Below the pieces are notes generated by a model, which ran no database searches, was not told where the DNA came from, and worked only from the letters and a program-made list of their open reading frames with translations. Positions 33,120-54,346 of a stretch of 61,025 nucleotides of DNA are shown here, one piece after another (within the stretch, counting starts at the first letter, position 1; each line of letters begins with the position of its first letter). The stretch is from a marine gamma proteobacterium HTCC2080 (GTDB lineage Bacteria; Pseudomonadota; Gammaproteobacteria; Pseudomonadales; Halieaceae). The position numbers were made by a program, and so were the translations under genes. The DNA is taken from NCBI GenBank assembly GCA_000169115.1, contig AAVV01000016.1, positions 1-61,025 on the forward strand, given 5' to 3'.

Positions 33120-33143
33120 GGCAGTGTCCTATAGCGTTTGCTT

Positions 33144-39800: not shown

Positions 39801-40949
39801 TTACTGAGTTCTAGCCACCATTTGTTTTGCGATGATCATGCGCTGTATTTCGTTGGTGCCTTCACCGATACAAAGCAGCGGGGCGTCGCGGTAAAAACGC
39901 TCGATTTCATACTCTGGCGAATAGCTGTAGCCGCCAAAGACCCGCATGGCGTCGAGGCTATTTTGAACTGCTGATTCTGAGGCGAAAAATTTAGCTTGCC
40001 CCGCCTCAAGGTCGCAGCGTTCACCCTGATCAAACTTATTGGCCGCCTGTTTAACCAGTAATTCGGCGGCGGAAGCACGGGTAGACATCTCTGCAAGTTT
40101 CAATTGAATGGCCTGATGTTCGGCAATGGGCTTGCCAAAGGTTTTACGCTCCATGGCATAGCGTAAGGCCATGTCAGTAGCGCCTTTCGCCATGCCGGCA
40201 CCTCGGGCGGCAATGTTGATGCGCCCAAGTTCCAGCCCGCCAGCGACTTGTTGAAAGCCTCGGCCCTCTTCGCCTCCAATTAAATTATCAGCTGAAACGT
40301 GAAAATCGTCGAAGATTAATTCGGCGCTATCAATAGCTCGATAGCCCAGCTTTTTGAGTTTCTTACCTACGGAGAAGCCGTCACCTTTTTCACACAGGAA
40401 CAGGGACATACCGCGATGCCTAGGTTCTATATCGGGATTGGTCTTGGTCAGCACTGCCAGGCAATTACCGTTAATGCCGTTAGAAATCCACGTTTTGGTG
40501 CCGTTTAAAATATAGTGATCACCTTGCCGTTTGGCCTGCAGTCGAATGCTTTGTAAATCAGAGCCCGCGTCGGGTTCCGTTAGGCCAATGCCGCCCCTTA
40601 ACTCACCCGTTGCAAACCGAGGTAAAAAATATTCCTTTTGCGCTTGTGTGCCCCCACGTTCTACGCAGTTAGCCATGATCAGGTGCGAGTTAAAAATACC
40701 CGATGGTGCCATCCAAACTTCACAAATTCGGGAGACGATTTTTGCGTAAGTTGTAGCACTTAATCCGAGTCCGCCGTACTGCTCAGAGATGGTGGCGCCA
40801 AACAGTCCCAGAGTTTTCATTTGCTCTACGAGTTCTTTGGGGTACTCATCGGCCTGATCAAACTCTCTGGCAATAGGTCGCAATTCTCGTTCTACCCATT
40901 TATCGATCGTAGCGAGGATTTGCTGTTCAGTATCATTTTCTGTGGTCAT
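39801..40949 (-). CDS. Acyl-CoA dehydrogenase
   Basis: The 382-residue flavoprotein has the family signatures GGIGLTEPDAGSD, KTWISNG, the ERKTFGKPIAEHQ segment and the catalytic glutamate in IGEGTNEIQR (E363). It oxidises an acyl-CoA to the enoyl-CoA with electron transfer flavoprotein. The gene follows the MaoC-type gene by 24 bp on the same strand and is probably cotranscribed with it from the operator-bearing promoter at 41552. The substrate chain is unknown. Confidence 0.92.
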   Translation of the reverse strand: MTTENDTEQQILATIDKWVERELRPIAREFDQADEYPKELVEQMKTLGLFGATISEQYGGLGLSATTYAKIVSRICEVWMAPSGIFNSHLIMANCVERGGTQAQKEYFLPRFATGELRGGIGLTEPDAGSDLQSIRLQAKRQGDHYILNGTKTWISNGINGNCLAVLTKTNPDIEPRHRGMSLFLCEKGDGFSVGKKLKKLGYRAIDSAELIFDDFHVSADNLIGGEEGRGFQQVAGGLELGRINIAARGAGMAKGATDMALRYAMERKTFGKPIAEHQAIQLKLAEMSTRASAAELLVKQAANKFDQGERCDLEAGQAKFFASESAVQNSLDAMRVFGGYSYSPEYEIERFYRDAPLLCIGEGTNEIQRMIIAKQMVARTQ

Positions 40950-40973: not shown

Positions 40974-41468
40974 TTAAGCAGCTGGCGCAGGTTTTTTGGG
41001 TACAAGCATCTGTCGTTCGAAAACGCAGACTTCAACGTCATGCTGATTAATGCCCCGCGTCAGTACTGTCACAATGCCAGCGTTGGGACGAGATTTAGAT
41101 TCCCGCTTTGCCAAGACTTCGGTGTTGGCATAAAGCGTATCTCCGGGGAAGACAGGCTTGGTGAGCTTGATGTCTTTCCAGCCGAGATTCGCTATGGCTT
41201 TGGCGCTGACATCGGATACGCTCATGCCCACCACAATAGCAACCGTCAACGGGCTGGCGACCAAGGGTTTGCCAAATTCAGTAGCCGCAGCATATTCCTC
41301 ATCAAAGTGCAGAGGATGGGTATTCATGGTAAGCAGGGTAAACCAAGCATTATCCTGTTGGGATATGGTTCGACCTGGCAGGTGGTGGTAAATATCCCCC
41401 TCGTTAAAGTCGTCAAAATACCGCCCTGGCATGGCGGCGTAACGTTCCATTACTGACTGATCACTCAC
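40974..41468 (-). CDS. MaoC-type (R)-enoyl-CoA hydratase-like protein
   Basis: The 164-residue hot-dog protein has the hydratase 2 motif, DNAWFTLLTMNTHPLHFDEEYA. It fits the single-domain MaoC group that hydrates mesaconyl-CoA, itaconyl-CoA or similar enoyl-CoAs. It heads the minus-strand pair with the acyl-CoA dehydrogenase and is divergent from the GntR repressor gene, with the operator between them. A CitE lyase and a CaiB transferase under the same operator echo the itaconate degradation set (family-level resemblance). Confidence 0.85.
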   Translation of the reverse strand: MSDQSVMERYAAMPGRYFDDFNEGDIYHHLPGRTISQQDNAWFTLLTMNTHPLHFDEEYAAATEFGKPLVASPLTVAIVVGMSVSDVSAKAIANLGWKDIKLTKPVFPGDTLYANTEVLAKRESKSRPNAGIVTVLTRGINQHDVEVCVFERQMLVPKKPAPAA

Positions 41469-41549: not shown

Positions 41550-41567
41550 TAAAATGTTCGGACATTT
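41550..41567. promoter_or_regulatory. GntR operator site A with overlapping -10 box
   Basis: AAATGTTCGGACATTT at 41552-41567 is a near-perfect palindrome. TAAAAT at 41550-41555 reads as a -10 box towards the GntR gene, and its last T is the first T of the TGT half-site. The site lies 22 bp before the repressor start and in the gap to the divergent MaoC gene, so it probably gives autorepression and controls both directions. Confidence 0.75.
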
Positions 41568-41588
41568 CGCAGAGTAGCAAGATTCGGC

Positions 41589-42371
41589 ATGCCGCCCAAT
41601 CCAATAGACGCAAAAACTAAAAAAGAATCTCCGCTATATCGGAAAATCGCCGACACGTTGTTGTCTGGAATTCGAGATGGGCTCTTTCCGGTAGGCTCCC
41701 TATTACCCGGGGAGCTCGAATTAATCGAGCGTTTTAGTAGCAGTCGCCACACCATTCGTGAGGCTCTCCGCGTGCTGGAAGATATGGGTATTGTTAAGCG
41801 CCAGCGAGGACGCGGTACCTTAGTGATTTCTACGGAAGCTAGGCCTTCCTTTGTACAGGCAGTGCGAGACCCCCGTGAGTTGTTTACCTATCCAGAGAAC
41901 AGTGCATTTCGTGTGCTGGTCGAGGGTCGTGTTGCAGACGAAGATCACTGGCCCAGTAAAATAGGCGAGGGGGTGGACGAAAATTGGGCACGGATTGCAG
42001 GTCTGAGAACTCTGCATGATGGCAGTCCTTTTTGCTGGACTGATATTTATGTGCTCCCCGATTACGCGGCGATTGCACAGCAGCTTGGCCGAACGAAACG
42101 TCCGGTTTACGAACAAATTGCGGAAACTTTCGGTGAAACTGTGCAGCGTATCAGTGTGGAGATTTGCGCTGGCAGCTTGAGAGGCGAGCGCGCCAAAGCC
42201 CTTCTGGTTGATGAGGGAACACCTTCACTGGTGCTGTATCGACGGTATTGCGGCAATGGTAACCGGTTATTTGAGGTCTCAGTGACTGAACATCCCGCCG
42301 ATAGTTTCAGCTATTCCCTTGAGTTTAATCGCGGTTGGCAAGCCGCTGAACACTGGTCCTGGAGTAAATAA
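41589..42371 (+). CDS. GntR-family repressor, HutC/UTRA type
   Basis: The 260-residue regulator has an N-terminal winged helix (PLYRKIADTLLSGIRDGLFP with SRHTIREALRVLEDMGIVKR as the recognition part, about residues 15-78) and a C-terminal UTRA ligand-binding domain. HutC-type members repress catabolic genes and are released by a pathway compound. The palindromic operator AAATGTnCGnACATTT lies just before it and is repeated at four further island promoters, so this is the best candidate for the island repressor. Ligand and direct binding are not shown. Confidence 0.9.
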   Translation: MPPNPIDAKTKKESPLYRKIADTLLSGIRDGLFPVGSLLPGELELIERFSSSRHTIREALRVLEDMGIVKRQRGRGTLVISTEARPSFVQAVRDPRELFTYPENSAFRVLVEGRVADEDHWPSKIGEGVDENWARIAGLRTLHDGSPFCWTDIYVLPDYAAIAQQLGRTKRPVYEQIAETFGETVQRISVEICAGSLRGERAKALLVDEGTPSLVLYRRYCGNGNRLFEVSVTEHPADSFSYSLEFNRGWQAAEHWSWSK

Positions 42372-42373
42372 AT

Positions 42374-43270
42374 ATGCCACAGAGAGAGTTGGCTGTTATT
42401 CGCAGTTTCATGTTTACTCCTGCGAATCATCCCCGTCGCGTTGAAAAAGTTTTTCAGATTGGTGCCGATGCGGTCATTCTAGATTTGGAAGACGCGGTTG
42501 CAGTTGCAGAAAAAGTGGCTGCTCGGGAGGATGTCGTTGCTGCTTTTTCTGCATCACAACGTAAATGCTTACATTACGTCCGGATTAACAGCGTTGATAC
42601 CGAGTACTGGCTGGGCGATATTCAGGCAACAGTTGGTCCTTGGCTAGATGGAGTGGTTGTGCCGAAAGTGGAATCGGCGGCTGCACTACTTCAGGTTGAG
42701 GCCGCAATTGCTGAGGCTGAAAGTGCGGCAGGTTTGGCAGTGGGCTGCCTCGATATTTTACCAATCATTGAAACTGCACGCGGCGTCGAGACCGCCGCTG
42801 AAATCGCGACTGCCGGTTCTAGAATACGCCGCCTCGCCTTTGGCGGTGGAGATTACACCCTTGATTTAGATTACGAGTGGAGCGCGGATGAGGACGTGCT
42901 GGCGTATGCTCGAGCACGGTTGTCTCACGCTTCTCGGCTAGGCGGGTTGCAGCCGCCGATTGACACGGTTGTTCTTCAGATCAAAGACGATGCCCGTTTT
43001 ACAGCGTCTGCACAGCGGGGGCGTAAGTTTGGGTTTGGTGGCAAGCTCTGCATTCATCCCAGCCAAATACCGTTGACGAATTCAATCTTTTCTCCATCAA
43101 CCCAAGAAATTGCTCATGCGAGCGCTGTGGTTGCCGCATTTGAGGCCGCTGAAGCAAGTGGGTCAGCTTCGATTCAGCTCGATGGTTATTTTATTGATTA
43201 CCCGATTGTATACAAAAGCCAGAGAATTCTTGCTCTTGCAGCATTGTTGGAGCAGCAAGAGGTTTCGTAA
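42374..43270 (+). CDS. HpcH/HpaI-CitE family acyl-CoA lyase
   Basis: The 298-residue barrel protein has the CitE-like start RSFMFTPANHPRRVEKV, DAVILDLEDAV, the PIIETARG segment and FGGGDYTLDL. Members split citryl-, malyl- or citramalyl-CoA into a 2-oxo acid and an acyl-CoA. It starts three bases after the GntR gene and is probably cotranscribed with it. With the MaoC hydratase and the class III CoA transferase it forms the three-enzyme logic of itaconate-type degradation: activation, hydration, cleavage. Confidence 0.87.
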   Translation: MPQRELAVIRSFMFTPANHPRRVEKVFQIGADAVILDLEDAVAVAEKVAAREDVVAAFSASQRKCLHYVRINSVDTEYWLGDIQATVGPWLDGVVVPKVESAAALLQVEAAIAEAESAAGLAVGCLDILPIIETARGVETAAEIATAGSRIRRLAFGGGDYTLDLDYEWSADEDVLAYARARLSHASRLGGLQPPIDTVVLQIKDDARFTASAQRGRKFGFGGKLCIHPSQIPLTNSIFSPSTQEIAHASAVVAAFEAAEASGSASIQLDGYFIDYPIVYKSQRILALAALLEQQEVS

Positions 43271-43285
43271 CACGCCGTCGTCACT

Positions 43286-43302
43286 TATAATGTCCGGACA
43301 TT
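43286..43302 (+). promoter_or_regulatory. GntR operator site B with consensus -10 box
   Basis: AATGTCCGGACATT at 43289-43302 is a perfect 14-bp palindrome. TATAAT at 43286-43291 is a consensus -10 box in the same register as at site A, the last T starting the TGT half-site. It lies between the CitE stop and the GTG start of the PrpD-like gene, so that gene has its own controlled promoter. Confidence 0.8.
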
Positions 43303-43314
43303 TAAGGAGGCGCA

Positions 43315-44769
43315 GTGGCCAACACGCAAACCAATCAAGAGTCTTTGACTCGTCGCATTGCAACATCATCCCTAGCTTTGCGGTCGGGCGACGTTGCCCC
43401 TGAGCTGATGGCGTATACAAAGAGCTGTATTGCCGACGCGATCGGCATAGGGTTTGCCTCGCATTATTACGATTTCGCCGAGCGTACCGTGGCAGGGGTG
43501 CGAACTTTAGCGAGCCCCGGCGCTGGTGTTGTGATTGGGCTGGAAGATACCTTGGCCCCCAGAGACGCGGCGCTGTTAAATGGAACTCTGGTTCATGGCT
43601 TAGATTTTGACGACACGCACTTGGCGTCAGTCGTACATTGTTCGGCGAGTGCCTTGCCTACCGCCTTAGCGCTGGCGTCGGAGAGAACGGTTTCGGGTAC
43701 AGACCTGCTGCTGGCTTGCATTATTGCTACCGAGGTTGATGCTCGACTGGGAAGCGCAGCGGGAGGGACATTTCAGCAGCTTGGATTCCATCCAACGGGT
43801 GTGGTGGGTATTTTTGGTGCCACCGTTGCTGCGGTTCGACTTCTTGGTGGCACTGTGGATGAGGCTGTCCGCGCTCAGGGAATTGCCCTTAGTATGGCTG
43901 GGGGCAGTATGGCCTTCCTAGATACGGGTACTTGGACAAAAAGATTGCATCCGGGCTGGGCTGCGCAATCGGCTCTGGCAGCGGCTAAATTGGCCCTAGC
44001 GGGATTTGAGGCTCCACCCGAGGCCTACGCAGGTCGCTATGGGTTTTACGCTTTGTTCACGCAAAATGCCAATAACGTGAACAACGTAGATTGGTCCAGC
44101 GCCTATCAAGAGTTTGCGATGGAGTCTGTGGCCATAAAGCCTTACCCGATATGCCACTTCAATCATGCCCCAGTAGACGCCGCGCTTCATTTGCGTGCTA
44201 AGCACGGGCTGCGTTCAGAACATATAGAGTCAATAACGATTGGATTACATGAGCGTCAGTTTGCCGTGGTGGTTGAACCCGTAGCCCGTAAACAGCGGCC
44301 AGAAAGTGAGTATGAGGCTAAGTTCAGCGTGGCCTATGCCGTCGCAACCGCCTTGGTTCGCGGCCAGTTAGGGCTTCGTGAGCTTGAGTTAGAAAGCCGA
44401 ACTGACGAAGCTATTCTTGCACTTACTCCGCGTATTCATTGCGTTCACGATGATCGCTCTAACTACCCACAAACCTTTTCGGGTGGCGTTAGTATCAAGA
44501 TGCGTGATGGTACGGTCTATGAGCATTTCGATGCGGTTAACCGGGGCGCAGAGGGTCGCTTATTAAGCGAGGGTGATGTCAAGACGAAGTTTGTTCAAAA
44601 CTGTCGTTTGGTGCTTTCCGAAACACGCACTGAAGCAGTTTGGGAAGCCATTATGGACGTCGACAAGCAAGATGATTGTTCGGCGCTTTTAGAGGCCCTT
44701 AAAGGGTTGGGTGATCCGATTTCGACCGCGGATCGCAACAATGCAGTATCAAGGAGCGCAACATGCTGA
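43315..44769 (+). CDS. MmgE/PrpD family protein
   Basis: The 484-residue protein has the family motifs: HGLDFDDTHL near residue 97, a glycine-rich RLLGGT helix region, KRLHPGWAAQSALAA, KPYPICHFNHAP and a C-terminal lid domain. Members include 2-methylcitrate dehydratase, cis-aconitate decarboxylase and iminodisuccinate epimerase, so it may dehydrate, decarboxylate or isomerise a carboxylated intermediate. The start is GTG at 43315 behind AAGGAGG. The 3' end overlaps the start of the dehydratase/HpaB homologue by seven bases. Confidence 0.85.
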   Translation: MANTQTNQESLTRRIATSSLALRSGDVAPELMAYTKSCIADAIGIGFASHYYDFAERTVAGVRTLASPGAGVVIGLEDTLAPRDAALLNGTLVHGLDFDDTHLASVVHCSASALPTALALASERTVSGTDLLLACIIATEVDARLGSAAGGTFQQLGFHPTGVVGIFGATVAAVRLLGGTVDEAVRAQGIALSMAGGSMAFLDTGTWTKRLHPGWAAQSALAAAKLALAGFEAPPEAYAGRYGFYALFTQNANNVNNVDWSSAYQEFAMESVAIKPYPICHFNHAPVDAALHLRAKHGLRSEHIESITIGLHERQFAVVVEPVARKQRPESEYEAKFSVAYAVATALVRGQLGLRELELESRTDEAILALTPRIHCVHDDRSNYPQTFSGGVSIKMRDGTVYEHFDAVNRGAEGRLLSEGDVKTKFVQNCRLVLSETRTEAVWEAIMDVDKQDDCSALLEALKGLGDPISTADRNNAVSRSATC

Positions 44770-46337
44770 TGAAGTCTGGCGGAAAGATTATGAGCGCGGA
44801 AGAGTACCGCGAGAGCCTGCGCAGTTACTCGCCGACGGTGTATGTCGATGGAGATCTTATAGAGAGTGTTGCGGATGAACCGAGATTAGCGCCGGGTATA
44901 CGCGCCGTCGGCGTTACCTACGATTTTGCCCAGAAGCCCGAGTTTGGTGGCGTGATGCTGGCTGATCAGGCGAGCTCAGGTAAGACGGTCAATCGCATGC
45001 TGCACATTAACCGGCACTCTGAAGATTTGTTGAGCAAACTCGAAGCTGTACGTCTGCTGTGTCGTGAGAGTGGTTGCGCCCAGCGCTACCTGACCCACGA
45101 TGCCCTCAACGCGATATATCAGTCCACCTGGCGTATGGCTGATGAAACTTCGGGTAGTGAGTATCACTCGCGGTTCCTAGATTACTTGCACGATATTCAA
45201 GATCGCGATCTTACCCTCGGCGTGGCTATGACCGATGCCAAGGGAGAGCGCAGGCTGCGGCCCCACGCTCAGTCAAATCCAGACGCTTATGTGCACATCA
45301 GCGAGCGTCGGGCCGATGGCATTGTGTTGTCAGGTACTAAGGCAATTGTGACCGGTGGCCCTTATATGCACGAGCTGTTGGTGATGCCTTGTAGGACCAT
45401 GGTGGCCGGTGACACCGATTTCGCGGTTTGCTGTGCCGTACCTATCGACGCCAAAGGCCTGACTGTGGTCGCTAGGCCGGCGGGGCGTCCGGGTCAAGCT
45501 GCGGCTAAGTTCAGCGCGCAATATGGCCAAAGTACGGCGGTCTGCCACTTTTCCGAGGTATTTGTGCCTTGGGATCGTGTGTTTATGGCTGGGGAATGGG
45601 ACCAGACCGAGCATCTTGTAACCTCTTATGCCAATCATCATCGACACAGTTGCATTGGTGCTAGAGCGGGGTTTGGGGATCTGCTCATAGGAGCTGGCGC
45701 GCTGATGACCGATGCTAACGGTCTCGATATGGACGACGTCTCGCATTTGCGGGAGACCATGGTTGAGCTGATTAAGATTGTCGAGGGCTTTTACGCCTGT
45801 GGTGTTGCGGCGTCAGTTTACGGTATTCAGGATCCCTGCGGCTCTTGGATGCCAGAACCCGTATTTTCCAATATCGGTAAATTACTGCTGGCGACACAGA
45901 TTTACGATATGCACCGAACTGCTCATGAGGTATCGGGCGGGTTGATTGTTGCACTCCCCGGTCCCGATGAAGACCATAACCCGGCGACTGCGGGTGATCT
46001 CGCGGCAGTTCTTTCAGCGCGGCCCGATGTCCCCTACGATAAGCGCATGGAGGTTTCGCGCTTTATAGAAGACCTAACAGCCTCTTCGACCGGTGGTTGG
46101 TATTCAGTAATTAGCCTTCATGGTGGCGGTTCTCCTCAGGCCATGAAGCGTGAAATTTATCGGCGCTACCCGGTGGAAGAAAGGAAGGCCCTCGTGGAGC
46201 GGTTGCTGGACCGCGGTGTGGCGGAAACGGGCAGCACGGGTGCGCCGGATCGCCAAAAACAACCGGGTCAATGTTGCGCAACCGGCTGTCAGGTGCCCGA
46301 ATCAGTAGAAAAGCCACAGCAGGACTCAGACAGTTAA
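44763..46337 (+). CDS. 4-hydroxybutyryl-CoA dehydratase / HpaB-family flavoprotein
   Basis: The 524-residue protein closely follows the 4-hydroxybutyryl-CoA dehydratase (AbfD) pattern: AMTDAKGERRLRP, GIVLSGTKAIVTGG, FVPWDRVFMAGEWD, GDLLIGAGALM, and SLHGGGSPQA. AbfD binds a 4Fe-4S cluster with Cys99, Cys103, His292 and Cys299. By eye these align with C105, Y109, H293 and A300, so two cysteine ligands are gone. A CoA-ester dehydratase is therefore doubtful, and a flavin monooxygenase of the HpaB type is equally possible. AGGAG precedes the ATG at 44763. A ~50-residue C-terminal tail with two Cys is extra. Confidence 0.8.
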   Translation: MLMKSGGKIMSAEEYRESLRSYSPTVYVDGDLIESVADEPRLAPGIRAVGVTYDFAQKPEFGGVMLADQASSGKTVNRMLHINRHSEDLLSKLEAVRLLCRESGCAQRYLTHDALNAIYQSTWRMADETSGSEYHSRFLDYLHDIQDRDLTLGVAMTDAKGERRLRPHAQSNPDAYVHISERRADGIVLSGTKAIVTGGPYMHELLVMPCRTMVAGDTDFAVCCAVPIDAKGLTVVARPAGRPGQAAAKFSAQYGQSTAVCHFSEVFVPWDRVFMAGEWDQTEHLVTSYANHHRHSCIGARAGFGDLLIGAGALMTDANGLDMDDVSHLRETMVELIKIVEGFYACGVAASVYGIQDPCGSWMPEPVFSNIGKLLLATQIYDMHRTAHEVSGGLIVALPGPDEDHNPATAGDLAAVLSARPDVPYDKRMEVSRFIEDLTASSTGGWYSVISLHGGGSPQAMKREIYRRYPVEERKALVERLLDRGVAETGSTGAPDRQKQPGQCCATGCQVPESVEKPQQDSDS

Positions 46338-46446
46338 GAGCGTGCCCGCCAAGTGCCTCGCGCGCTGACGGTGGCGCGTTTTTGCGCCATCTAGTTGTAG
46401 GCAAGTCTGGTCAGATTGCTATGCGCATTTAGCAACGACACGGCCC

Positions 46447-47292
46447 TCAGACGGGGACCGCGAGAGCTTCCGGTGGCAAAATAGTTGTTCGCTTCATGAG
46501 GCGATCATGGTTTTGGTCAAAGGGGTCGCGACGATGCATAGTGCAGGCGTTGTCCCACAGCAGTGCATCCCCTGGCTGCCAAGAGTGTGAATACACATAA
46601 CGCGGCTGGACCGTCCACTCAAAAAGATAATCAAGCATGGCTCTACTGTCTGCGGCTTCCCAGCCGACGATCTCTGTAGTCATACCAGGACACAGATAGA
46701 GTGCTTTTTCTCCTGTAACTGGGTGGGTTCGAACAATAGGGTGCGCAATGTCAGGCGACCGTTGCTTCTGTTCCTTGCTGGTGGGGACGCTGTAAGCGCT
46801 GTTGAATGCCTCATAAGATTGTACGGCGCGCGCCCCCTCAAGTTGCTGTTTGACCTCTTCAGGAAGCTCGCTGTATGCCGTCGTCATGTCGGCAAATTCC
46901 GTGTTGCCCCCAGTTGGGGGCAGCGTATGGGCCATTAATAGTGAGCCAACGGCAGGGCGGGGTAGATAGATTTGATCGTAATGCCAGCCCACTTCTGTGT
47001 CGGCAAGAATGCCCATTTTCTTTCCGTTGTTTTTCATGTTCGAAACGTACAAGACCTCGGGAAAGGCTGACGACAGATATTCGGTGCGAACGTGAATCTC
47101 GAGGTCGCCGAAAACTCGACTGAAACTCACTAAGGTTTCCTCATCGAGGTTCTGGTTTCTAAATAAGAGCAGCTTATGCTTGGCCCATAGTGCCTTAATG
47201 GCGGTATTTTCCTCATTAGACGTTGTTGAAGAGATGGTGTAGTCAGAAACTTCTGCACCGAAAGTAGGGGCTAGAGACCGAGTGTTCTGCAT
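46447..47292 (-). CDS. TauD/TfdA-family 2-oxoglutarate dioxygenase
   Basis: The 281-residue protein has the iron triad H104 and D106 in GWHYDQIYLP, with the distal H253 in NACTMHRRDPF, and a 2-oxoglutarate-binding arginine region near 265. Members hydroxylate substrates and so break C-S, C-O or C-N bonds. The start at 47292 was chosen because longer starts run through the operator at 47321-47336. It converges with the dehydratase/HpaB homologue. A 66-bp gap to the EamA gene upstream holds its promoter. Confidence 0.9.
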   Translation of the reverse strand: MQNTRSLAPTFGAEVSDYTISSTTSNEENTAIKALWAKHKLLLFRNQNLDEETLVSFSRVFGDLEIHVRTEYLSSAFPEVLYVSNMKNNGKKMGILADTEVGWHYDQIYLPRPAVGSLLMAHTLPPTGGNTEFADMTTAYSELPEEVKQQLEGARAVQSYEAFNSAYSVPTSKEQKQRSPDIAHPIVRTHPVTGEKALYLCPGMTTEIVGWEAADSRAMLDYLFEWTVQPRYVYSHSWQPGDALLWDNACTMHRRDPFDQNHDRLMKRTTILPPEALAVPV

Positions 47293-47320
47293 TACGTCGC
47301 CTGCAATGTTCAAAAAAATT

Positions 47321-47336
47321 AATTGTACGGACATTT
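47321..47336 (-). promoter_or_regulatory. GntR operator site C
   Basis: On the minus strand the site reads AAATGTCCGTACAATT, one base off the consensus AAATGTnCGnACATTT. It lies 29 bp before the TauD start. With its flank it reads GCAACAAATGTCCG on the minus strand, identical to the same 14 bases at site E (plus strand), showing that these two promoters share sequence beyond the core. Confidence 0.75.
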
Positions 47337-47358
47337 GTTGCCGAATCAAACCCGCAGC

Positions 47359-48285
47359 TCAGGATTTAGCTTTTTGGTAGGCGCTACGCCACTCCAGCAC
47401 CCCAACACTCAGCACGACTAAAACGGTTCCTAGGAACTGTAGTGCCGTCAGTCGCTCGTCATAAATTAGGTAAGCCATAAAAGCAGTTGCAGGCGGGCCT
47501 ACCGTGCTGAGCAAAGCACCGCGAGATGCCCCGATTCGTCGTATACCCTCGGCCACGCAAAACAAAGGTAGTACTGTTGCGAAGACTACTAGTCCTAGCA
47601 TGATCCACAAACTAATCCCCGGAAGCTCAACCTGGAGCCAGCCCATGATTAGGCCGTGATGAACAAAAAAAGCGGTGCCAGCGGCGGTCATTGCAGTGAG
47701 GGTAAAGGTGGCCGAGCTCATATTTTGGGTTAGCGCACCATTGGCCATGAAGTAACAGGCAATTGTGACTGAGCAAAAAAGCACCCAGAAAATCCCCTGC
47801 CATTGATCAGAGGAAAGTTGTGCATCGGCTGCGCCCGTGACCAGCAATACCCCGAGAGAGGTTGTTGCAAGGGCCACCATGGTGGATCTGGAGGGAATAG
47901 CCCTTGTAGTGATAGCCGAAAACAACACAACCATCGCGGGATAGGAAAACAGTAGGGCACGTTCTACGTTTGCCTGAATCAATGTCAGTGCATAAAAATT
48001 AGCCAGTGCGCCAAAATAATAACACCAGAGGCCCGCTGCTGCGGCAGCGATCAAATGCAAGGGAGTGGGTTTAGGGCTAGGTTTTCCCTTAAACCGTTGG
48101 GCGCTGATGGCTGCGACCAAAATAAATCCCGGGATAGCCAAAACCGAACGTACCGCAGCGACATCATGATAGGTCATGCCCTGAGCATAGAGAGCTTTGG
48201 CAAAAAGCCCTTTAGCCGCTAAAAGTATGGCCCCCAGTACAACGAGGGCTGCACCAATCAGCCCGCTTTTGGGGTCAGTGCTAAT
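47359..48285 (-). CDS. EamA/DMT family transporter
   Basis: The polytopic membrane protein has the usual ten-helix DMT layout only if translation starts before the first ATG at 48177. Upstream codons encode a strong first helix (GLIGAALVVLGAILLAAKGL), but the frame has no ATG, GTG or TTG there; only ATT or CTG codons are available. An ATT at 48285 forms TAATT with the stop of the isochorismatase gene, where TAATG would be the usual coupled start. The listed end uses this ATT; if the ATG at 48177 is used, the first helix is lost. A substrate cannot be named. It is probably cotranscribed with isochorismatase 2. Confidence 0.8.
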   Translation of the reverse strand: MSTDPKSGLIGAALVVLGAILLAAKGLFAKALYAQGMTYHDVAAVRSVLAIPGFILVAAISAQRFKGKPSPKPTPLHLIAAAAAGLWCYYFGALANFYALTLIQANVERALLFSYPAMVVLFSAITTRAIPSRSTMVALATTSLGVLLVTGAADAQLSSDQWQGIFWVLFCSVTIACYFMANGALTQNMSSATFTLTAMTAAGTAFFVHHGLIMGWLQVELPGISLWIMLGLVVFATVLPLFCVAEGIRRIGASRGALLSTVGPPATAFMAYLIYDERLTALQFLGTVLVVLSVGVLEWRSAYQKAKS

Positions 48286-48968
48286 TACTGGATGCCTAAC
48301 TGCAATTCTGTGAGAACCTCATCGGTTGTCAGTACTCTCGCCCACAAGCGTTTAAGCATGGTGAGAGTAGCGGTTTGCATCTCTTCGCTGTCTGTTCCAG
48401 TACCGTCACTGACTACGACTACCCGATATTGAAGATCGCAGGCTTCCATAGATGTCATGGCGACACAGTTGTTGGTGGAAACGCCTACGGTTACCACGGT
48501 TTTAATGCCCTTAGCCCGAAGAGTGGTGTCAAGCCCGGTAGAGCAAAAGGCTCCTTGGGTCGTCTTATTGACAACAAGCTCGCCTGATTGTGGCTGTAAC
48601 GGGGCGACGATCTCATGTTCCTTTTGGCCAGCAATATTGTTGGTGGCGCGAATAATAGGCGCCATATGTGCCGGGGCATCGCTCGCATCGGGGGCGTTGG
48701 CCCCATAGGTAACGTAAATCACTTCAGAACCCAGCGTTCGAAAGCCTGCTAATAGCTTTTGAATGTTAGGGATTAAGAGTTCGTTGATGCGGTTAAAGCG
48801 GTAGGCGGCACCTTCAAATTCACCGCGTTCGGCGAGGAGCTTGCCCAGCCCCATATCAGGGTTACCGGTAGCGTTTTGCATATCAATGACAATCAATGCT
48901 GTTTCGCCCGGAGTGATGGCAAAATTCTGGCTGAAGGCATCGACGAACCCCGGCTGACTTTGATTCAT
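48285..48968 (-). CDS. Isochorismatase-fold amidohydrolase 2
   Basis: The 227-residue cysteine hydrolase has the triad D29 (LIVIDMQNATG), K135 (VVNKTTQGAF) and C168 (GVSTNNCVAMTSME). It is more distant from paralogues 1 and 3. Its TTQGAFCST segment and mid-region are like RutB and other amidases of the family, but the substrate is open. The start at 48968 has AAGAGAG upstream; a longer start at 48998 would lie inside operator D. It precedes the transporter gene on the minus strand. Confidence 0.85.
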   Translation of the reverse strand: MNQSQPGFVDAFSQNFAITPGETALIVIDMQNATGNPDMGLGKLLAERGEFEGAAYRFNRINELLIPNIQKLLAGFRTLGSEVIYVTYGANAPDASDAPAHMAPIIRATNNIAGQKEHEIVAPLQPQSGELVVNKTTQGAFCSTGLDTTLRAKGIKTVVTVGVSTNNCVAMTSMEACDLQYRVVVVSDGTGTDSEEMQTATLTMLKRLWARVLTTDEVLTELQLGIQ

Positions 48969-48984
48969 TTTTCGTGCTCTCTTG

Positions 48985-49000
48985 AAATGTTCGTACATTT
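48985..49000. promoter_or_regulatory. GntR operator site D, in a divergent promoter
   Basis: AAATGTTCGTACATTT at 48985-49000 fits the consensus at every fixed position. On the minus strand TAAAAT overlaps it in the same register as at site A, directed at isochorismatase 2; on the plus strand TGAAAT is a weaker -10 towards isochorismatase 3. It lies in the 88-bp gap between their starts and should control both directions. Confidence 0.8.
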
Positions 49001-49056
49001 TACGCCATATTGCGTCTCCACCCCAAACGACACTCTCAACACCGAGGTTTGTAGCG

Positions 49057-49674
49057 ATGGATCAGTTTGAACGCGCAGGATATGGACAGAGAAATATTGG
49101 TTTTGGTGCTCGGCCCGCTCTGTTGATGGTTGATTTTCAGCTGGGATTTACCGACGGGGTAAGCCCTATCGGCCGCAGTGAACATATTCAAAGTGCGGTA
49201 GACAACACCCGCACGTTGCTCATGGCCTGTAAAGCAAAAGGGATTCCGGTGGCATCTTGTCGTGTGTCTTGGGGTGGGCCCGATGAAATGACGCACTGGA
49301 AAATAGAGACTCTGTTTGACGGCAGCTTTTATCACGGGCACCGATGCACCGAGCTGGATCCGCGTATATCGGATCCAGATTATGTGTTTGAGTTTATAAA
49401 AACTGCACCGTCAATTTTTTATGAAACGCCGCTTAAACCCTGGTTGGTTACTCACGGTATAGACACAACTATTGTTACCGGCTGCACCACCTCGGGCTGT
49501 GTTAGAGCATCGGTTGTCGATAGTTTTTCAGCGGGTTATCGCACGATTGTTCCCGCAGATTGTTGTGGCGATCAAGATGCTGAAGCACACGCCAGCAACC
49601 TGCGCGATGTCGATCGGCGCTATGCTGATGTAGTCGATTTGCAAACGGTTCTGAATCACATCAACGGTTCTTAA
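49057..49674 (+). CDS. Isochorismatase-fold amidohydrolase 3 (N-carbamoylsarcosine amidase-like)
   Basis: The 205-residue protein has D26 (LLMVDFQLGFTD), K115 (FIKTAPSIFYET) and C148 (GCTTSGCVRASVVD). The KTAPSIF and TTSGCVRA segments are typical of N-carbamoylsarcosine amidohydrolase and maleamate amidohydrolase relatives, and it is the paralogue of hydrolase 1. The start at 49057 was chosen because it gives a family-length N-terminus; an upstream start would lie in operator D. It precedes the alpha/beta hydrolase gene by 26 bases. Confidence 0.85.
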   Translation: MDQFERAGYGQRNIGFGARPALLMVDFQLGFTDGVSPIGRSEHIQSAVDNTRTLLMACKAKGIPVASCRVSWGGPDEMTHWKIETLFDGSFYHGHRCTELDPRISDPDYVFEFIKTAPSIFYETPLKPWLVTHGIDTTIVTGCTTSGCVRASVVDSFSAGYRTIVPADCCGDQDAEAHASNLRDVDRRYADVVDLQTVLNHINGS

Positions 49675-49700
49675 TTTTTTTAATCTAAGGAGAGTTCGCC

Positions 49701-50504
49701 ATGCCTGTGGCTCACATTAACGGACACAATATGTATTACGAAGTCCATGGCGAAGGTCCCCCCGCCGTTTACATTGGCGGGTGGGATACCTTTTGCCACG
49801 GGCGTAGTCATTTTCTGGCTCGGGGTATGACCGACAACTACAGCACCTTGATCATTGATTATCGTGGTATTGGCGACTCCGATGATGATTTGACGATGAC
49901 CCCCTCCACAGAGCTATTTGCAGACGACATCGCGGCACTGCTTGATCATCTCAATATGAAGTCGGTGTATTTTGTGGGATTGGTGGGTATGGGAGCGTGC
50001 ATTGGGCAGTGGGTCGCTCTGAAACGTCCTGACTTGGTGCGATGCATGGTTAACATGGGTTGTTGGACCTATGCGGATCCCATGTTGTCAGATCAGCTGC
50101 AGTCTTTTGGTGATATTCATGAGCATGCCGGTTTTGCAGCGTTTCAGGCGATGGTAGCGTCGTATTCTTTTCGGCCCGATTACTACAACGCCCACCGCGA
50201 GAAATTAATGGGTCCGGGCGGTGTGTGGGGCAGCTTGGAAGGTCGAGTGCCGGCTCACTTACGTTTTATTCAGGCTTGTAAAGGACACGATATTCGCCCG
50301 CATCTCAAAGATATCGCGGCGCCGACCTTGGTGCTTCATGCTGGGCAGGACGTAATCACAGGCCCCCGCACTACGATGCCATTGGAGGAGGGGCTGCCCA
50401 ACAGCACGGGGGTGATGATGGAGCAGGTTGCGCATGTGGTCGCAGGTAAAGACGAAAAAATCGCTTTCTGTGACATCCTGTTCGATTTCCTCCAAAAGCA
50501 TTAA
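49701..50504 (+). CDS. Alpha/beta hydrolase without a serine nucleophile (RutD-like)
   Basis: The 267-residue protein has the alpha/beta hydrolase fold: a GGWDTFCHGR oxyanion region, DYRGIGDSD, the acid in AGQDVI and a histidine in VAHVV. At the nucleophile elbow the sequence is VGLVGMGACIGQW, with a glycine at the serine position (G96 when aligned on the following helix). E. coli RutD, which helps aminoacrylate hydrolysis in uracil breakdown, also lacks the serine (alanine). The parallel is seen in sequence; shared function is inference. AGGAG precedes the ATG. Confidence 0.75.
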   Translation: MPVAHINGHNMYYEVHGEGPPAVYIGGWDTFCHGRSHFLARGMTDNYSTLIIDYRGIGDSDDDLTMTPSTELFADDIAALLDHLNMKSVYFVGLVGMGACIGQWVALKRPDLVRCMVNMGCWTYADPMLSDQLQSFGDIHEHAGFAAFQAMVASYSFRPDYYNAHREKLMGPGGVWGSLEGRVPAHLRFIQACKGHDIRPHLKDIAAPTLVLHAGQDVITGPRTTMPLEEGLPNSTGVMMEQVAHVVAGKDEKIAFCDILFDFLQKH

Positions 50505-50935
50505 CCCAAGTGCGCCTCTAGACCCGGCGGCGACCGAGCATCGGTCGGCTGGGTGTTTTGTGTCTTGCGGGTGACCGTGTCACCCCACCTCTTTGGGTAT
50601 TGTCGATTCGCAGGATTTGATGCGGCTGGCGTTGGAGCAAGACGCGGCAGAGCAAGACACGACGAAGCAAGACAAACTTACGCAAACCAATAAAAGCTGG
50701 TAGAAAAGTGAAGAAGGGAAGGGTTCTCGCTAACCCTGACTAGGGGCAGCCTGTACCTGTGGGACGCCTAACACCTATCGGGGCTGATAGCGCTAGGCCG
50801 ACTCTTTCGTGCTGAAGGGCTTGTTCGTGCTGAAGGGCTTGCTGTTAACTCAAGGCTTGTTGGGGAGCCGCGCCCCTTGTGGGTTAGGGGCGGCGGCCTC
50901 AAATATTTTAGGAAGGCACTGTAGGGTTAACGCTT
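50505..50935. other. 431-bp gene-free gap with short tandem repeats
   Basis: No convincing gene is visible between the convergent hydrolase and CoA transferase genes. A 15-bp imperfect repeat in three copies (each beginning AGCAAGAC at 50636, 50651 and 50666) sits here. A short frame through it reads LEQDAAEQDTTKQDKL, perhaps a remnant. A perfect 18-bp duplication is at 50806-50841. No terminator with a clear T-run is seen. The base composition and repeats suggest decayed or recently rearranged DNA. Confidence 0.5.
50806..50841. repeat. Perfect 18-bp tandem duplication
   Basis: TTCGTGCTGAAGGGCTTG occurs twice back to back, 50806-50823 and 50824-50841. The copies are identical, which indicates recent slippage or selection. 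It lies in the gap between convergent genes. Confidence 0.9.
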
Positions 50936-52120
50936 TTAAATGGCTCCAGAAGCTTTCAGTTCGGCCAAATCGTCTCTTCCCAATTCACCACCTAGAATCG
51001 TCTCATTATCGGCGCCCAGGCCATTGCCGCAGCGGGTCACAAGCCTTTCTCCGTCGATTTTTATGGGGTTGCTAAGCGCGCGGTACTCGTCGACGACGCG
51101 ATGGGGAACCGTTTGTATCATGCCTGTCGCTTGAACAAAGGGATTTTCCAACGCTTCGGGCAGGGTGTTAACTGGCGCCACCGGGATTTTCGTTTGCAAC
51201 ACGCCAAACCAATGCTCGGTGGTTTCAGTCATCAAAATGGTGTCTAGCACGCCCGTCAGCTCAGCGCGGTTATTCGCACGGTCACTCATGGTGGCAAAGC
51301 GGTGATTTTCCGCGAGTTCTGGGTGACCGATATTTTCGATCAAGAGTTCCCAGAACTTTTGTGTCATACACATCAGGAATATCCAGCCGTCTTGGGTGCG
51401 GTAGAGTTGAACTGGCGTGTTGTAAGGATGCGCTGAACGCGCCACGCGGCTGGTTTCAATGCCGTGGTTCATGTACCAAGTACCTGGGTAAGTTAATTGG
51501 TGAAGCGCGACATCGAATAGCGTTACATCGACATCCCGGCCACCGTGCTTGCTACGCCCCAGCAGTGCTGACACGCAGCCAAGTGCGGCTACCACGCCGG
51601 TCATGAAATCGATCATGGACAAGCCGAAGCGAGCGGGTGGTGACTCGGGCTCTCCTGTCAGTCCTAAAAAGCCGCACTCTGCCTGCATTAAGTAGTCGTA
51701 GCCGGGCCACTCGGCGCGGTCGTTATCGCGTCCATAAGCTGAGATGTGTGTACAAATAATATCTGACTTTACCGCCTTCAAAGTTTCGTAGTCGAGGCCC
51801 AGTTTTGCAGGTTGACTCCCTCTGAGGTTATTCCACACCACGTCGGCGGTGCGCACGAGGTCTTCAAAAATAGCGCGACCTTCTGTGCTTTTTAAATTCA
51901 CCGTGACACTGCGCTTGGACAGATTAAAAGCTTGAAAATAAGCGCTGTCATCGTCAGCCAACGTGACCGCTCCTGACTGACGCGAGGGATCGCCTCCGGT
52001 AGCTCGATTCTCGACTTTGATCACATCTGCACCGAGTTCAGCGAGGTACATGGAGCCGTAGGGTCCGGCACCAAACTGTTCTATAGCAATCACTCGGATG
52101 CCCTCTAAGGGTTTGTCCAT
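50936..52120 (-). CDS. Class III CoA transferase (CaiB/BaiF family)
   Basis: The 394-residue protein has the family start GIRVIAIEQFGAGPYGSMYL, GADVIKVENRATGGDPSRQ and the catalytic aspartate in PGYDYLMQAECGF (D142). Members move CoA from succinyl-CoA or another donor to a carboxylate. It is divergent from the HyuA-like gene, with operator E between them. With MaoC and CitE under the same operator, it matches the activation step expected for an itaconate- or mesaconate-like dicarboxylate. Confidence 0.92.
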   Translation of the reverse strand: MDKPLEGIRVIAIEQFGAGPYGSMYLAELGADVIKVENRATGGDPSRQSGAVTLADDDSAYFQAFNLSKRSVTVNLKSTEGRAIFEDLVRTADVVWNNLRGSQPAKLGLDYETLKAVKSDIICTHISAYGRDNDRAEWPGYDYLMQAECGFLGLTGEPESPPARFGLSMIDFMTGVVAALGCVSALLGRSKHGGRDVDVTLFDVALHQLTYPGTWYMNHGIETSRVARSAHPYNTPVQLYRTQDGWIFLMCMTQKFWELLIENIGHPELAENHRFATMSDRANNRAELTGVLDTILMTETTEHWFGVLQTKIPVAPVNTLPEALENPFVQATGMIQTVPHRVVDEYRALSNPIKIDGERLVTRCGNGLGADNETILGGELGRDDLAELKASGAI

Positions 52121-52193
52121 TTTCAGCTCTCAAGTGTTCAGGTGGATTGATATCAGTATCTTGCACGCTCTTGCAGATTGGTGCATGGTGCAG

Positions 52194-52206
52194 TGTAACC
52201 GTTACA
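52194..52206. promoter_or_regulatory. Second palindrome in the CaiB/HyuA promoter region
   Basis: TGTAACCGTTACA is a perfect 13-base palindrome with one central base (TGTAAC-C-GTTACA). It lies seven bases before operator E in the divergent gap. It differs from the GntR operator in spacing, so it may bind another regulator. No other copy was noticed in the window. Confidence 0.4.
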
Positions 52207-52212
52207 TGCAAC

Positions 52213-52228
52213 AAATGTCCGGTCAATT
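52213..52228. promoter_or_regulatory. GntR operator site E, half-degenerate
   Basis: AAATGTCCGGTCAATT has the left half of the consensus intact and two changes in the right half. The preceding GCAAC and following CAATT are shared with site C, which supports a common origin. It lies between the divergent CaiB-type and HyuA-like genes, 57 bp before the HyuA start. Confidence 0.6.
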
Positions 52229-52285: not shown

Positions 52286-54346
52286 ATGACTTACCGCCTA
52301 GGTGTCGACGTTGGTGGCACATTTACCGATCTTATCCTCGTCAACGAATCCAGTGGAGACATTCATACCGCGAAGGTACCGAGCACCCCTGATGATTCGT
52401 CGGTGGGCGTAATGAACGGTGTTGAACGTGTTTGCGGAAACGCTGGCATTGATCCATCTGAAATTTCGCAGGTCATGCACGGCACGACGGTTGCTACAAA
52501 CACGGTACTCACTGGTTCAGGCTCTAAAGTGGGTCTTGTGACGACTAAGGGATATAAGCAAGTGCTGCAGATTGCGCGCTCCTATGTCCCTGGAGGCTTG
52601 GGTGGCTGGGTTATTTACAACAAGAGCGACCCGTTGGCGCCGCTCGCCTGCACCATCGAGGCCGAGGAGCGCATGGGGGCAGACGGTAAGCCTGTGCGCG
52701 GTCTCGACGCGAAAGCCCTTGAGAAGGCTATGGACCAGCTCAAAGAGGAAAACATCGAGGCACTTACCGTTTCCTTGATTAACTCCTACGCGAACCCAAA
52801 GCACGAGAAGGCAGTTGAAAGGGTGGCTCGAAAGGCGTTACCCGGCGTGCCTATTTCACTGTCCTCTTCGGTGGTTCCCGAGATGCAGGAATACGAGCGT
52901 ACTATAACGACAGTGGCTAACTCCTACGTGCGACCCAAGGTTGCTGAGTACGTCAAAAATTTGGAGAAGAAACTCAAGAAGGGCAACAAGAATATCCAGC
53001 TCAATATTCTGCGGTCTGACGGCGGTATGGCGTCGTCTAAGCTTGCACAACAGCTACCCGTTAATTTGTTGATGAGTGGCCCCGCTGGCGGGGTATCGGG
53101 CGCTTGTTGGGTGGCCAAGCAGGCGGGATTTGAAAACCTTCTGACCTTCGACATGGGTGGAACTTCGACCGATGTTGCACTGGTGCAGGATGGCAAGGCC
53201 CAACTTCGCCGCGAAACCACAGTTGGCGACGTCACAGTAAGAGCGTCTTCAGTCGATGTGCGAACAGTCGGTGCCGGTGGCGGATCAATTGCACATGTGC
53301 CTGAGTTAACCGGAGCACTCCGTGTCGGTCCGGAAAGCGCGGGCGCTCAGCCTGGCCCTGCGGCGTATAACAAAGGTGGAGTGCTTCCCACTGTGACTGA
53401 CGCCAACGTCGTACTGGGCTATCTTCCCAGTGAGGTTCGTCTGGGCGGAGACATGGAAATACGCAAAGACTTAGCCGAGAAAGCGATTAAACCTGTTGCC
53501 AAGGCATTGGGTATTTCAGTCAAGCGCGCTGCTGCGGGTATCATCGATATTGTTAATGAGAATATGTACGGCGCCCTGCGACTGGTTTCGGTCGAACAGG
53601 GTTTTGACCCCAGAGACTTCGCGCTTATTGGTTTTGGTGGTGCGGGTCCTCTTCATGCGAATGCGCTGGGTCGACTGATGAACAGCTGGCCTGTGATTAT
53701 TCCTCCTGGCCCTGGCGTCCTGTGTGCCTACGGCGACGCGACGACTCGAGTTCGAGACGAAGCTTCGCGAACGTACATTCGGCGTTTTGCCGATACGACA
53801 ACGGCTGATCTAGGCAAAATCTACGAAGAGTTGGCGGCGAAAGCGTTAAAGACTCTTGCTCAACAGGGCGTTCCCGCTAAGGAATGCAGTGTTTCTTGCC
53901 AGGCCGATATTCGTTACCAAGGTCAGGGCTTACAGTTGACGGTTGATTTCGATCTTAAAGCGCTTAAGAAGGGCGGCTTGGGAATTATTGGCGATCCCTT
54001 CGATGAGATGCACAAGCAGCTGTTCACTTTTGCGCTCGATTCTGACAAGGAAATTGTTAATTTAAGGGCTGTTGCGCAAGGCAAGAGTGCTGAGATCGAA
54101 GCCAGAAAACTACCCAAGTCAGGATCAAGAACCCCGGTTAACGCTGCCAAGTTAGGAAACACGACAGTATTTATGGATGGGAAGGACATGGACGCAACGC
54201 TGTACCAGCGGGACAAGCTCAAAGCGGGTAACAAAATAGAAGGGCCAGCTGTTGTGCTGGAAATGGATTCTACGACGGTCATTCTTGCGGGTCATACCGG
54301 TAACGTCGACGAGTTCGGCAACATTTTGATTGCACCGACTTCATAA
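52286..54346 (+). CDS. Hydantoinase/oxoprolinase subunit A (HyuA-like)
   Basis: The 686-residue protein has the sugar-kinase-like ATP-binding fold: LGVDVGGTFTDLILV at the N-terminus, MHGTTVATNTVL, LMSGPAGGVSGA, TFDMGGTSTDVAL and FGGAGPLHA. Members pair with a B subunit in ATP-dependent ring opening (N-methylhydantoinase, 5-oxoprolinase, caprolactamase) or carboxylation (acetone carboxylase). The ATG at 52286 follows AGGAGG and starts the family motif at once; a longer start adds a non-homologous leader. HyuB follows 12 bases later. Confidence 0.92.
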   Translation: MTYRLGVDVGGTFTDLILVNESSGDIHTAKVPSTPDDSSVGVMNGVERVCGNAGIDPSEISQVMHGTTVATNTVLTGSGSKVGLVTTKGYKQVLQIARSYVPGGLGGWVIYNKSDPLAPLACTIEAEERMGADGKPVRGLDAKALEKAMDQLKEENIEALTVSLINSYANPKHEKAVERVARKALPGVPISLSSSVVPEMQEYERTITTVANSYVRPKVAEYVKNLEKKLKKGNKNIQLNILRSDGGMASSKLAQQLPVNLLMSGPAGGVSGACWVAKQAGFENLLTFDMGGTSTDVALVQDGKAQLRRETTVGDVTVRASSVDVRTVGAGGGSIAHVPELTGALRVGPESAGAQPGPAAYNKGGVLPTVTDANVVLGYLPSEVRLGGDMEIRKDLAEKAIKPVAKALGISVKRAAAGIIDIVNENMYGALRLVSVEQGFDPRDFALIGFGGAGPLHANALGRLMNSWPVIIPPGPGVLCAYGDATTRVRDEASRTYIRRFADTTTADLGKIYEELAAKALKTLAQQGVPAKECSVSCQADIRYQGQGLQLTVDFDLKALKKGGLGIIGDPFDEMHKQLFTFALDSDKEIVNLRAVAQGKSAEIEARKLPKSGSRTPVNAAKLGNTTVFMDGKDMDATLYQRDKLKAGNKIEGPAVVLEMDSTTVILAGHTGNVDEFGNILIAPTS

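Follow-up and report, generated by a model that had tools for sequence, protein, structure and literature searches.

We propose that a catabolic gene island of the marine gamma proteobacterium HTCC2080 forms the regulon of a single GntR/HutC-type repressor, which very probably controls six promoters through a palindrome with the consensus AAATGTnCGnACATTT and is released by a metabolite of the pathway. The window, by which we mean the whole stretch of 61,025 nucleotides that was analyzed (GenBank contig AAVV01000016.1), is one entire contig (C10) of a 3.58 Mb genome that consists of 25 contigs and is rated 99.4% complete. Five of the palindromes lie in the window, and the sixth lies on an adjoining contig. 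An earlier note on this DNA had described the first five and had read them as the operators of a GntR regulon. That reading was supported by the strict uniqueness and the conservation of the sites; however, its gene set was too small, and the sixth site adds a receptor gene.

All five palindromes described earlier were present, and two of the five were exact matches to the proposed consensus. Operator A (AAATGTTCGGACATTT, 41552-41567, no mismatch) lies between the divergent units MaoC-acyl-CoA dehydrogenase (ACD) on the left and GntR-CitE on the right. Operator B (TAATGTCCGGACATTT, 43288-43303, one mismatch) precedes the MmgE/PrpD gene, and the previously given positions 43289-43302 are its inner part. 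Operator C (AATTGTACGGACATTT, 47321-47336, one mismatch) is found between EamA and TauD, both on the minus strand, and operator D (AAATGTTCGTACATTT, 48985-49000, no mismatch) between the divergent units isochorismatase 2-EamA and isochorismatase 3-hydrolase. Operator E (AAATGTCCGGTCAATT, 52213-52228, two mismatches, with the asymmetric half GGTCAATT) separates CaiB from the divergent genes HyuA-HyuB, possibly followed by a RutA-like gene. Operator F (ATTTGTACGTACAATT) is at positions 1634-1649 of contig C13, between a TonB-dependent receptor gene and two further CaiB-like genes. The central dinucleotide is CG in all six sites. The GT-nCGn-AC spacing, with four nucleotides between GT and AC, is found at A to D and at F; operator E has one mismatch to the core TGTnCGnACA, which is kept in relatives. 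Because A, D, and E are located between divergent genes, each of them can serve two units.

The uniqueness of the sites was quantified in the whole genome. With at most one mismatch, the strict threshold, AAATGTnCGnACATTT occurred at four places, all of them within the island, and the reversed control occurred at one place. The exact pattern ATGTnCGnACAT was found three times, again exclusively within the island. At exactly two mismatches there were 10 places, and the island holds only one of them, operator E at 52213. Because the other nine lie outside the island, the claim of operator E rests on its conservation. These nine were judged from their 3-kb surroundings and mechanical lists of open reading frames (ORFs): six are inside ORFs of at least 256 amino acids, one is inside an ORF of 81 amino acids, and two (L082 and L084) are outside any ORF of at least 80 amino acids. 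The two-mismatch place at C24:86487 (L080) falls within the end of an ORF, with another ORF starting about 15 bases further on, and it may have a promoter role. A weight matrix built from all sites gave 21.7-26.5 bits for the five window sites and 8.1 bits for the next window position. As this matrix is circular for the window, a second one was trained outside the genus, with 16 distinct exact-core words from 10 of 11 non-genus loci, the words being picked by the same core. It again ranked the five sites 1 to 5, with 16.4-20.6 bits, followed by a position with 12.3 bits. The best scores in window positions 1-38000 were 8.1 with the all-site matrix and 9.7 with the outside-trained matrix, in agreement with the former statement that the core half has no comparable copy. 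The strict scan of the whole genome also did not reveal many equal matches in unrelated promoters, the result that the earlier note had named as contrary to its proposal.

Conservation was analyzed in 57 genomes of the genus, most of the relatives being incomplete assemblies. Stretches around the regulator gene were fetched, and the window proteins were mapped on them by tblastn. For every genome with both flanking genes, the best match to TGTnCGnACA was taken from one orthologous interval and 60 bases of each flank; genomes were left out of a count when a contig ended in the interval or a flanking gene had no tblastn match. Site B had the exact core in 28 of 28 genomes, site C in 23 of 23, and site F in 6 of 6. 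With at most one mismatch, the core was found at site A in 26 of 27 genomes (10 exact), at site D in 17 of 22 (16 exact), and at site E in 13 of 13. As a control, eleven other intervals of the same islands were used, and only 9 of 170 cases contained near-cores of this quality. When the site intervals were aligned, the mean frequency of the major base was 0.84-1.00 inside the 16-mers, compared to 0.51-0.66 in the other non-coding columns. The gene order HMG-CoA-lyase-like gene, nitroreductase, ACD, MaoC, A, GntR, CitE, B, PrpD, AbfD-like gene, TauD, C, EamA, isochorismatase 2, D, isochorismatase 3, hydrolase, CaiB, E, HyuA is largely kept, down to a regulator identity of 57-63%. Deviations were a PrpD-TauD interval without a match to the AbfD-like gene in L059 and L076 and different genes left of EamA in L137. 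The comparison with orthologous islands, which had been suggested earlier as a check, was thus strongly supportive, as the sites keep their places in the relatives.

The sites also co-occur with the regulator gene. The regulator is present in 29 of the 57 genomes, and these contain 65 strict 16-mer matches, of which at least 6 are off the island; 23 of the 29 genomes have at least one match, and G332 has site D on two contigs. The 28 genomes lacking the regulator contain 11 strict matches, distributed over 10 genomes, and three of the 11 are island fragments of the incomplete assemblies G308 and G335. The co-occurrence has a Fisher p value of 0.0012, and the reversed control was found at 6 places in all 57 genomes. 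The off-island strict matches on contigs C31 and C41 of G297 are inside ORFs (L134, L135); further ones among those listed are on G329 C1 and G322 C43. In G331 (L078:8959-9736) the regulator is in two pieces in different frames, and the sites checked are kept. This split is likely to be a sequencing error, because several other island genes of the same contig are also split.

The regulator (41589-42371, plus strand) has 260 amino acids and combines an N-terminal GntR winged helix-turn-helix (HTH) domain (PF00392, 58.8 bits, cut-off 27) with a C-terminal UTRA effector domain (PF07702, 40.1 bits, cut-off 23.8), as in HutC-type regulators. A search of the genome yielded one protein with PF00392 and one with PF07702, and both were the window regulator. 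When a named collection was searched with the regulator, seven of eight loci belonged to Luminiphilus/Halieaceae assemblies. The recognition helix has the sequence SSRHTIREAL, and helix matching placed His54 at HTH position 39. His39 is present in every genus orthologue with a readable residue (it is unreadable in L036). The helix SRHTI/VREAL was found in the readable genus orthologues and in G362, a genome of another family with a regulator of 43-44% identity, and SRH or SRY in homologues with 30-34% identity.

These features were compared with published regulators, here and below on the basis of excerpts of the cited papers. In operators of the HutC subfamily, GT and AC are separated by four nucleotides, and the residue at HTH position 39, most commonly Met, correlates with the central pair (PMC4494728). 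The subfamily consensus NyGTMTAKACNy has a TA centre, and the same paper lists exceptions (PMC4494728). AraR carries a His at HTH position 39, His-64, which contacts the operator (PMC4494728 Table 1), and the AraR box At(T/A)tGTaCGTAcaa(A/T)T (PMC4218819) is nearly equal to site F. In NagR, Arg38 reads the outer G of the operator (PMC4333415); the Leu or Met found at this position here fits, because the operators have a T (TGT) in place of that G. Operator and helix thus agree with each other, with AraR as the precedent. Among the matches listed, no open-licence paper was found that joins the TGTnCGnACA core with a GntR/HutC regulator. In PMC6365646, which also contains the word GntR, the letters of the motif sit in a primer.

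How could the regulator act at these sites? With HutC-type regulators taken as the model, repression and release by a metabolite is the natural reading. The dimeric regulator would bind the palindrome at six promoters, five in the window and one on the adjoining contig, the recognition helix reading TGT/ACA and His54 reading the centre, as in AraR. When no inducer is present, the regulator would sit on the -10/-35 region and block transcription of a CoA-thioester module (MaoC, ACD, CitE, CaiB, and MmgE/PrpD), of genes for amide or ring opening (HyuAB, the isochorismatases, the RutA-like gene, and TauD), and of the EamA transporter, the receptor, and its own gene. Binding of a pathway metabolite to the UTRA domain would then release the regulator. 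The locations of several sites are consistent with a block. Operator A overlaps TAAAAT (41550-41555), operator B overlaps TATAAT (43286-43291) and abuts an AAGGAGG ribosome site, operator C overlaps a promoter-like TTGATT-16-TACAAT (47349-47322, minus strand), and operator D lies between and extends into the hexamers of a promoter-like TTGAAA-18-CATATT (48982-49011, plus strand). Because promoter-like matches are not enriched here over shuffled sequences (6 versus a mean of 7.7), this argument is weak and suggestive at most, and the count belongs with the contrary points gathered below. The regulator might also be an activator, or act by a mixture of activation and repression. Around A, B, and E, promoters were called weakly or not at all, and an activator, AkgR, with 32% identity to a GntR-like factor is mentioned in PMC6365646. 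However, binding at B, C, and D would place the protein on TATAAT or promoter-like hexamers, where it would block polymerase, and the HutC members NagR and DasR have been described as repressors, so activation is an unlikely mode.

Several results weigh against the proposed repressor regulon. At a loose threshold the pattern is not distinctive: with up to three mismatches, AAATGTnCGnACATTT was found at 6 places in the window, compared to 2.83 expected, and 11 of 100 shuffles reached 6; in the genome it occurred at 111 places, compared to 109 for the reversed control. With up to one mismatch, ATGTnCGnACAT occurred at 34 places in the genome and was rarer than its control (47 places). Site D failed in 5 of 22 genomes, being degenerate in three and absent in two, site E has one broken core base in 13 of 13 genomes, and site A of G330 has two core mismatches. 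Strict 16-mer matches are lacking in six of the 29 regulator-bearing genomes, where the sites have at least two mismatches. For 4 of 11 distant homologues (L012, L013, L020, and L029) no exact core was found in the stretches read, and for the gene of L013 none was found within 20 kb around it (L105). The operators of this genome have a CG centre and not the TA of the HutC consensus. While His39 and the CG-centred box are both present in this genome, the centre of site A is CG in 10, TG in 15, and GG in 2 of 27 genomes, and thus differs in 17 of them with the same His39, which is also contrary to a strict CG-His rule.

The variable centre of site A under a constant helix might indicate that the palindromes are the operators of another transcription factor and that the neighboring GntR protein is a bystander, and AraR, with a different effector domain, indeed reads the same type of box. 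This is very improbable. The window regulator is the sole protein with a GntR HTH that was found in the genome, sites and regulator gene co-occur across the genus, and a site adjoins the regulator gene in 26 of the 27 genomes with the interval. Moreover, exact core palindromes were present in the stretches read for 7 of the 11 homologues with about 30-34% identity (L012-L021 and L029), and also for the homologue with 43-44% identity (L103). Some distant loci contain palindrome pairs 74-123 bases apart (L155:14294/14417, L107:10743/10817, L111:9817/9892), unlike the single sites found here. Dispersed repeats, RNA hairpins, or chance matches in AT-rich DNA are hardly credible as an explanation of the palindromes. 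Although the loosely defined pattern is no commoner than chance, nothing equal to the island sites was found in the rest of the genome at the strict threshold, and the sites occupy the same places in relatives, where the control intervals had near-cores in only 9 of 170 cases.

The regulon proposed for the GntR repressor extends beyond the window. The window ends inside the TonB-dependent receptor gene, of which it contains the 3'-part (60182-61006, minus strand); the 5'-part and operator F are on the next contig. C13 continues the gene after a gap of about 220 bases, as concluded from a comparison with L088 and L089, and the contigs were left separate. Because site F precedes the receptor gene in 6 of 6 genomes, the receptor is likely to be a regulon member. 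On C13 (L098:1-6546), the receptor gene is followed by the two CaiB-like genes of the island, a gene for a cupin-like protein and a gene for an alpha/beta hydrolase (the latter two named by eye), and then by housekeeping-type genes. On the other side, the DNA polymerase III alpha gene (33138-36605) falls on the core side of the border of the island, both in the window and in several relatives. In the genome itself, no convincing site was found at the HMG-CoA-lyase-like gene, the nitroreductase, isochorismatase 1, or the methyltransferase/SDR pair. Two candidate sites were dropped for this genome, one between methyltransferase and SDR (core with at most one mismatch in 2 of 5 genomes) and one between isochorismatase 1 and the HMG-CoA-lyase-like gene (4 of 8 genomes by core, 1 of 8 by matrix score). 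Good palindromes, absent in the window genome, are located beside isochorismatase 1 in G338 (L028:1422) and G297 (L077:13518-13881), and the regulon border seems to shift between species. In G313 a separate cluster (L138:6843, C217) has AAAGGTCCGGACATTT in front of genes for a luciferase-family monooxygenase and a TonB receptor, with a divergently oriented cyclase-family gene nearby; it is a possible further regulon member in that species. Off the island, an exact AAATGTACGGACATTT was found in G345 (L133:7969; C1:31968) at the start of an ORF of 162 amino acids, among unrelated genes that are transporter-like as named by eye; it is a possible extra site.

The protein assignments refine the picture of the island. 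The ACD gene (39801-40949) and the MaoC hydratase gene (40974-41468) are on the minus strand. MaoC reached 211.7 bits with the NCBIfam RipB/Ich model (cut-off 340), and its nearest solved structure is beta-methylmalyl-CoA dehydratase (111.8 bits). The CitE/HpcH-HpaI lyase (42374-43270, plus strand) scored 212.5 bits with citE (cut-off 443.4) and 159.3 with RipC (cut-off 375). Equivalog-level matches to RipB/Ich and RipC/Ccl thus failed. The HpaB-fold, AbfD-like protein (44763-46337, plus strand) had been taken for an aromatic hydroxylase, and Pfam labels it 4-hydroxyphenylacetate hydroxylase. Both names were rejected, as the nearest solved structures are 4-hydroxybutyryl-CoA dehydratase and vinylacetyl-CoA isomerase (308 and 290 bits). 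We take the Fe-S ligands of 4-hydroxybutyryl-CoA dehydratase to be C99, C103, H292, and C299; in an alignment to 1u8v, C99 and H292 are kept, whereas Tyr and Ala replace C103 and C299. Relatives of 65-70% identity occur at 10 loci elsewhere in the Pseudomonadota, and no operator-linked island was found there. The MmgE/PrpD-family protein (43315-44769, plus strand) is nearer to cis-aconitate decarboxylase and iminodisuccinate epimerase, its nearest solved structures, than to 2-methylcitrate dehydratase, so the former label of a PrpD dehydratase was not retained. The active-site set of the P. aeruginosa MmgE/PrpD isomerase is His88, Glu91, His102, His152, Lys202, and Lys266 (PMC12290011). Judged by spacing, the corresponding residues would be H94, D97, H108, H159, K209, and K275, with five kept and Glu replaced by Asp.

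The remaining genes begin with a TauD-family 2-oxoglutarate dioxygenase (46447-47292, minus strand), whose start codon was assumed to be the ATG that lies downstream of operator C, and the EamA transporter (47359-48177, minus strand). Isochorismatase-family hydrolase 2 (48285-48968, minus strand) is biuret hydrolase/RutB-like, and hydrolase 3 (49057-49674, plus strand) is N-carbamoylsarcosine amidase-like and is followed by the alpha/beta hydrolase (49701-50504, plus strand). The nearest solved structure of the CaiB-type CoA transferase (50936-52120, minus strand) is a formyl-CoA transferase entry (225.6 bits), and its best NCBIfam model is succinate-glutarate CoA-transferase, with 222.3 of 750 bits. 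HyuA (hydantoinase/oxoprolinase A; 52286-54346) is caprolactamase-alpha-like (547 bits of 1000) and is followed by HyuB (54359-56374) and by the RutA-like luciferase-family monooxygenase (56429-57487; 381.7 bits, cut-off 498.3), all on the plus strand. The RutA-like gene starts 54 bases after HyuB and is possibly in the same transcript.

What may the regulon be for? A cluster of CaiB, MaoC, CitE, ACD, and MmgE/PrpD serves the use of itaconate and methylsuccinate in Cupriavidus necator and Pseudomonas aeruginosa (PMC12290011). All five families are present in the window locus, each beside an operator or in a unit starting at one (A, B, and E). At the family level, the core of the proposed regulon resembles a methylsuccinate/itaconate module, a homologous substrate being as likely as methylsuccinate itself. 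Judged from their family names, HyuAB, the two isochorismatases, the RutA-like protein, and TauD may point to the opening of a cyclic amide or imide. In G362, a GntR gene, the operator AAATGTCCGTACATTT, CitE, MaoC, ACD, and two CaiB genes are found together; the 20 kb read, from a contig that begins inside CitE, contained no match to the ring-opening genes. A search of other Pseudomonadota with the MaoC protein matched nine genomes, and eight loci were fetched. Three of the eight contain a GntR homologue with 30-34% identity (L155, L156, and L161) and three contain palindromes scoring at least 13 (L155, L156, and L158), so two have both. These results suggest that the CoA module is the older target of the regulator. 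Outside the genus, it is this module that is found with GntR and the operator, and a CoA or dicarboxylate intermediate is therefore a likelier inducer than the ring compound. It is conceivable, and rather doubtful as a whole, that the regulon controls an aerobic pathway, so far undescribed, for a methyl-substituted cyclic amide or imide, for example a pyrrole, maleimide, or succinimide ring derived from tetrapyrroles or from other nitrogen compounds of algae. Uptake would take place via the TonB receptor, and HyuAB, the RutA-like protein, and the isochorismatases would open the ring to give a methylsuccinate- or itaconate-like diacid, which would be split through CoA esters, with the diacid or its CoA ester as inducer. 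The combination of GntR, TGTnCGnACA, and CoA module would then be older than the ring-opening part and would occur in several lineages of Pseudomonadota.

In comparison to known systems, the regulon shares with the GntR/HutC regulons of NagR, DasR, and HutC the GntR HTH plus UTRA architecture, the GT-N4-AC palindrome, single sites in divergent promoters, a site beside the regulator's own gene, and scattered catabolic targets. It differs in its CG centre (TG at site A in some relatives) compared to their TA, and in the His (Tyr in distant homologues) at HTH position 39, where Met is most common. Its target pathway is also different, and it has Leu/Met at the position of Arg38 of NagR. Bacillus subtilis AraR shares the GntR-type HTH, the His at position 39, and a box close to site F. 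The effector domain of AraR is of the LacI type. In contrast, the window regulator has a UTRA domain, and AraR responds to arabinose (PMC4218819). The itaconate/methylsuccinate cluster likewise contains CaiB, MaoC, CitE, ACD, and MmgE/PrpD in one locus (PMC12290011). Here, however, the genes are split over operator regions A, B, and E under GntR, MaoC and CitE are below the NCBIfam cut-offs and MaoC is nearest to beta-methylmalyl-CoA dehydratase, and HyuAB, the isochorismatases, TauD, the RutA-like gene, and the TonB receptor join them; the main text of PMC12290011 contains neither "GntR" nor "LysR". The type of regulator is thus ordinary, and what appears to be new, as far as sequences can tell, is a regulon with an AraR-like operator under a HutC-type regulator.

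As a candidate recognition rule for this HutC branch, a CG-type centre would go together with a His or Tyr at HTH position 39. The six conserved sites set a functional boundary for enzymes in a little-studied marine genus. They indicate which genes probably work together, add an outer-membrane receptor to them, and point to the dicarboxylate/CoA part of the pathway as the step that is sensed.

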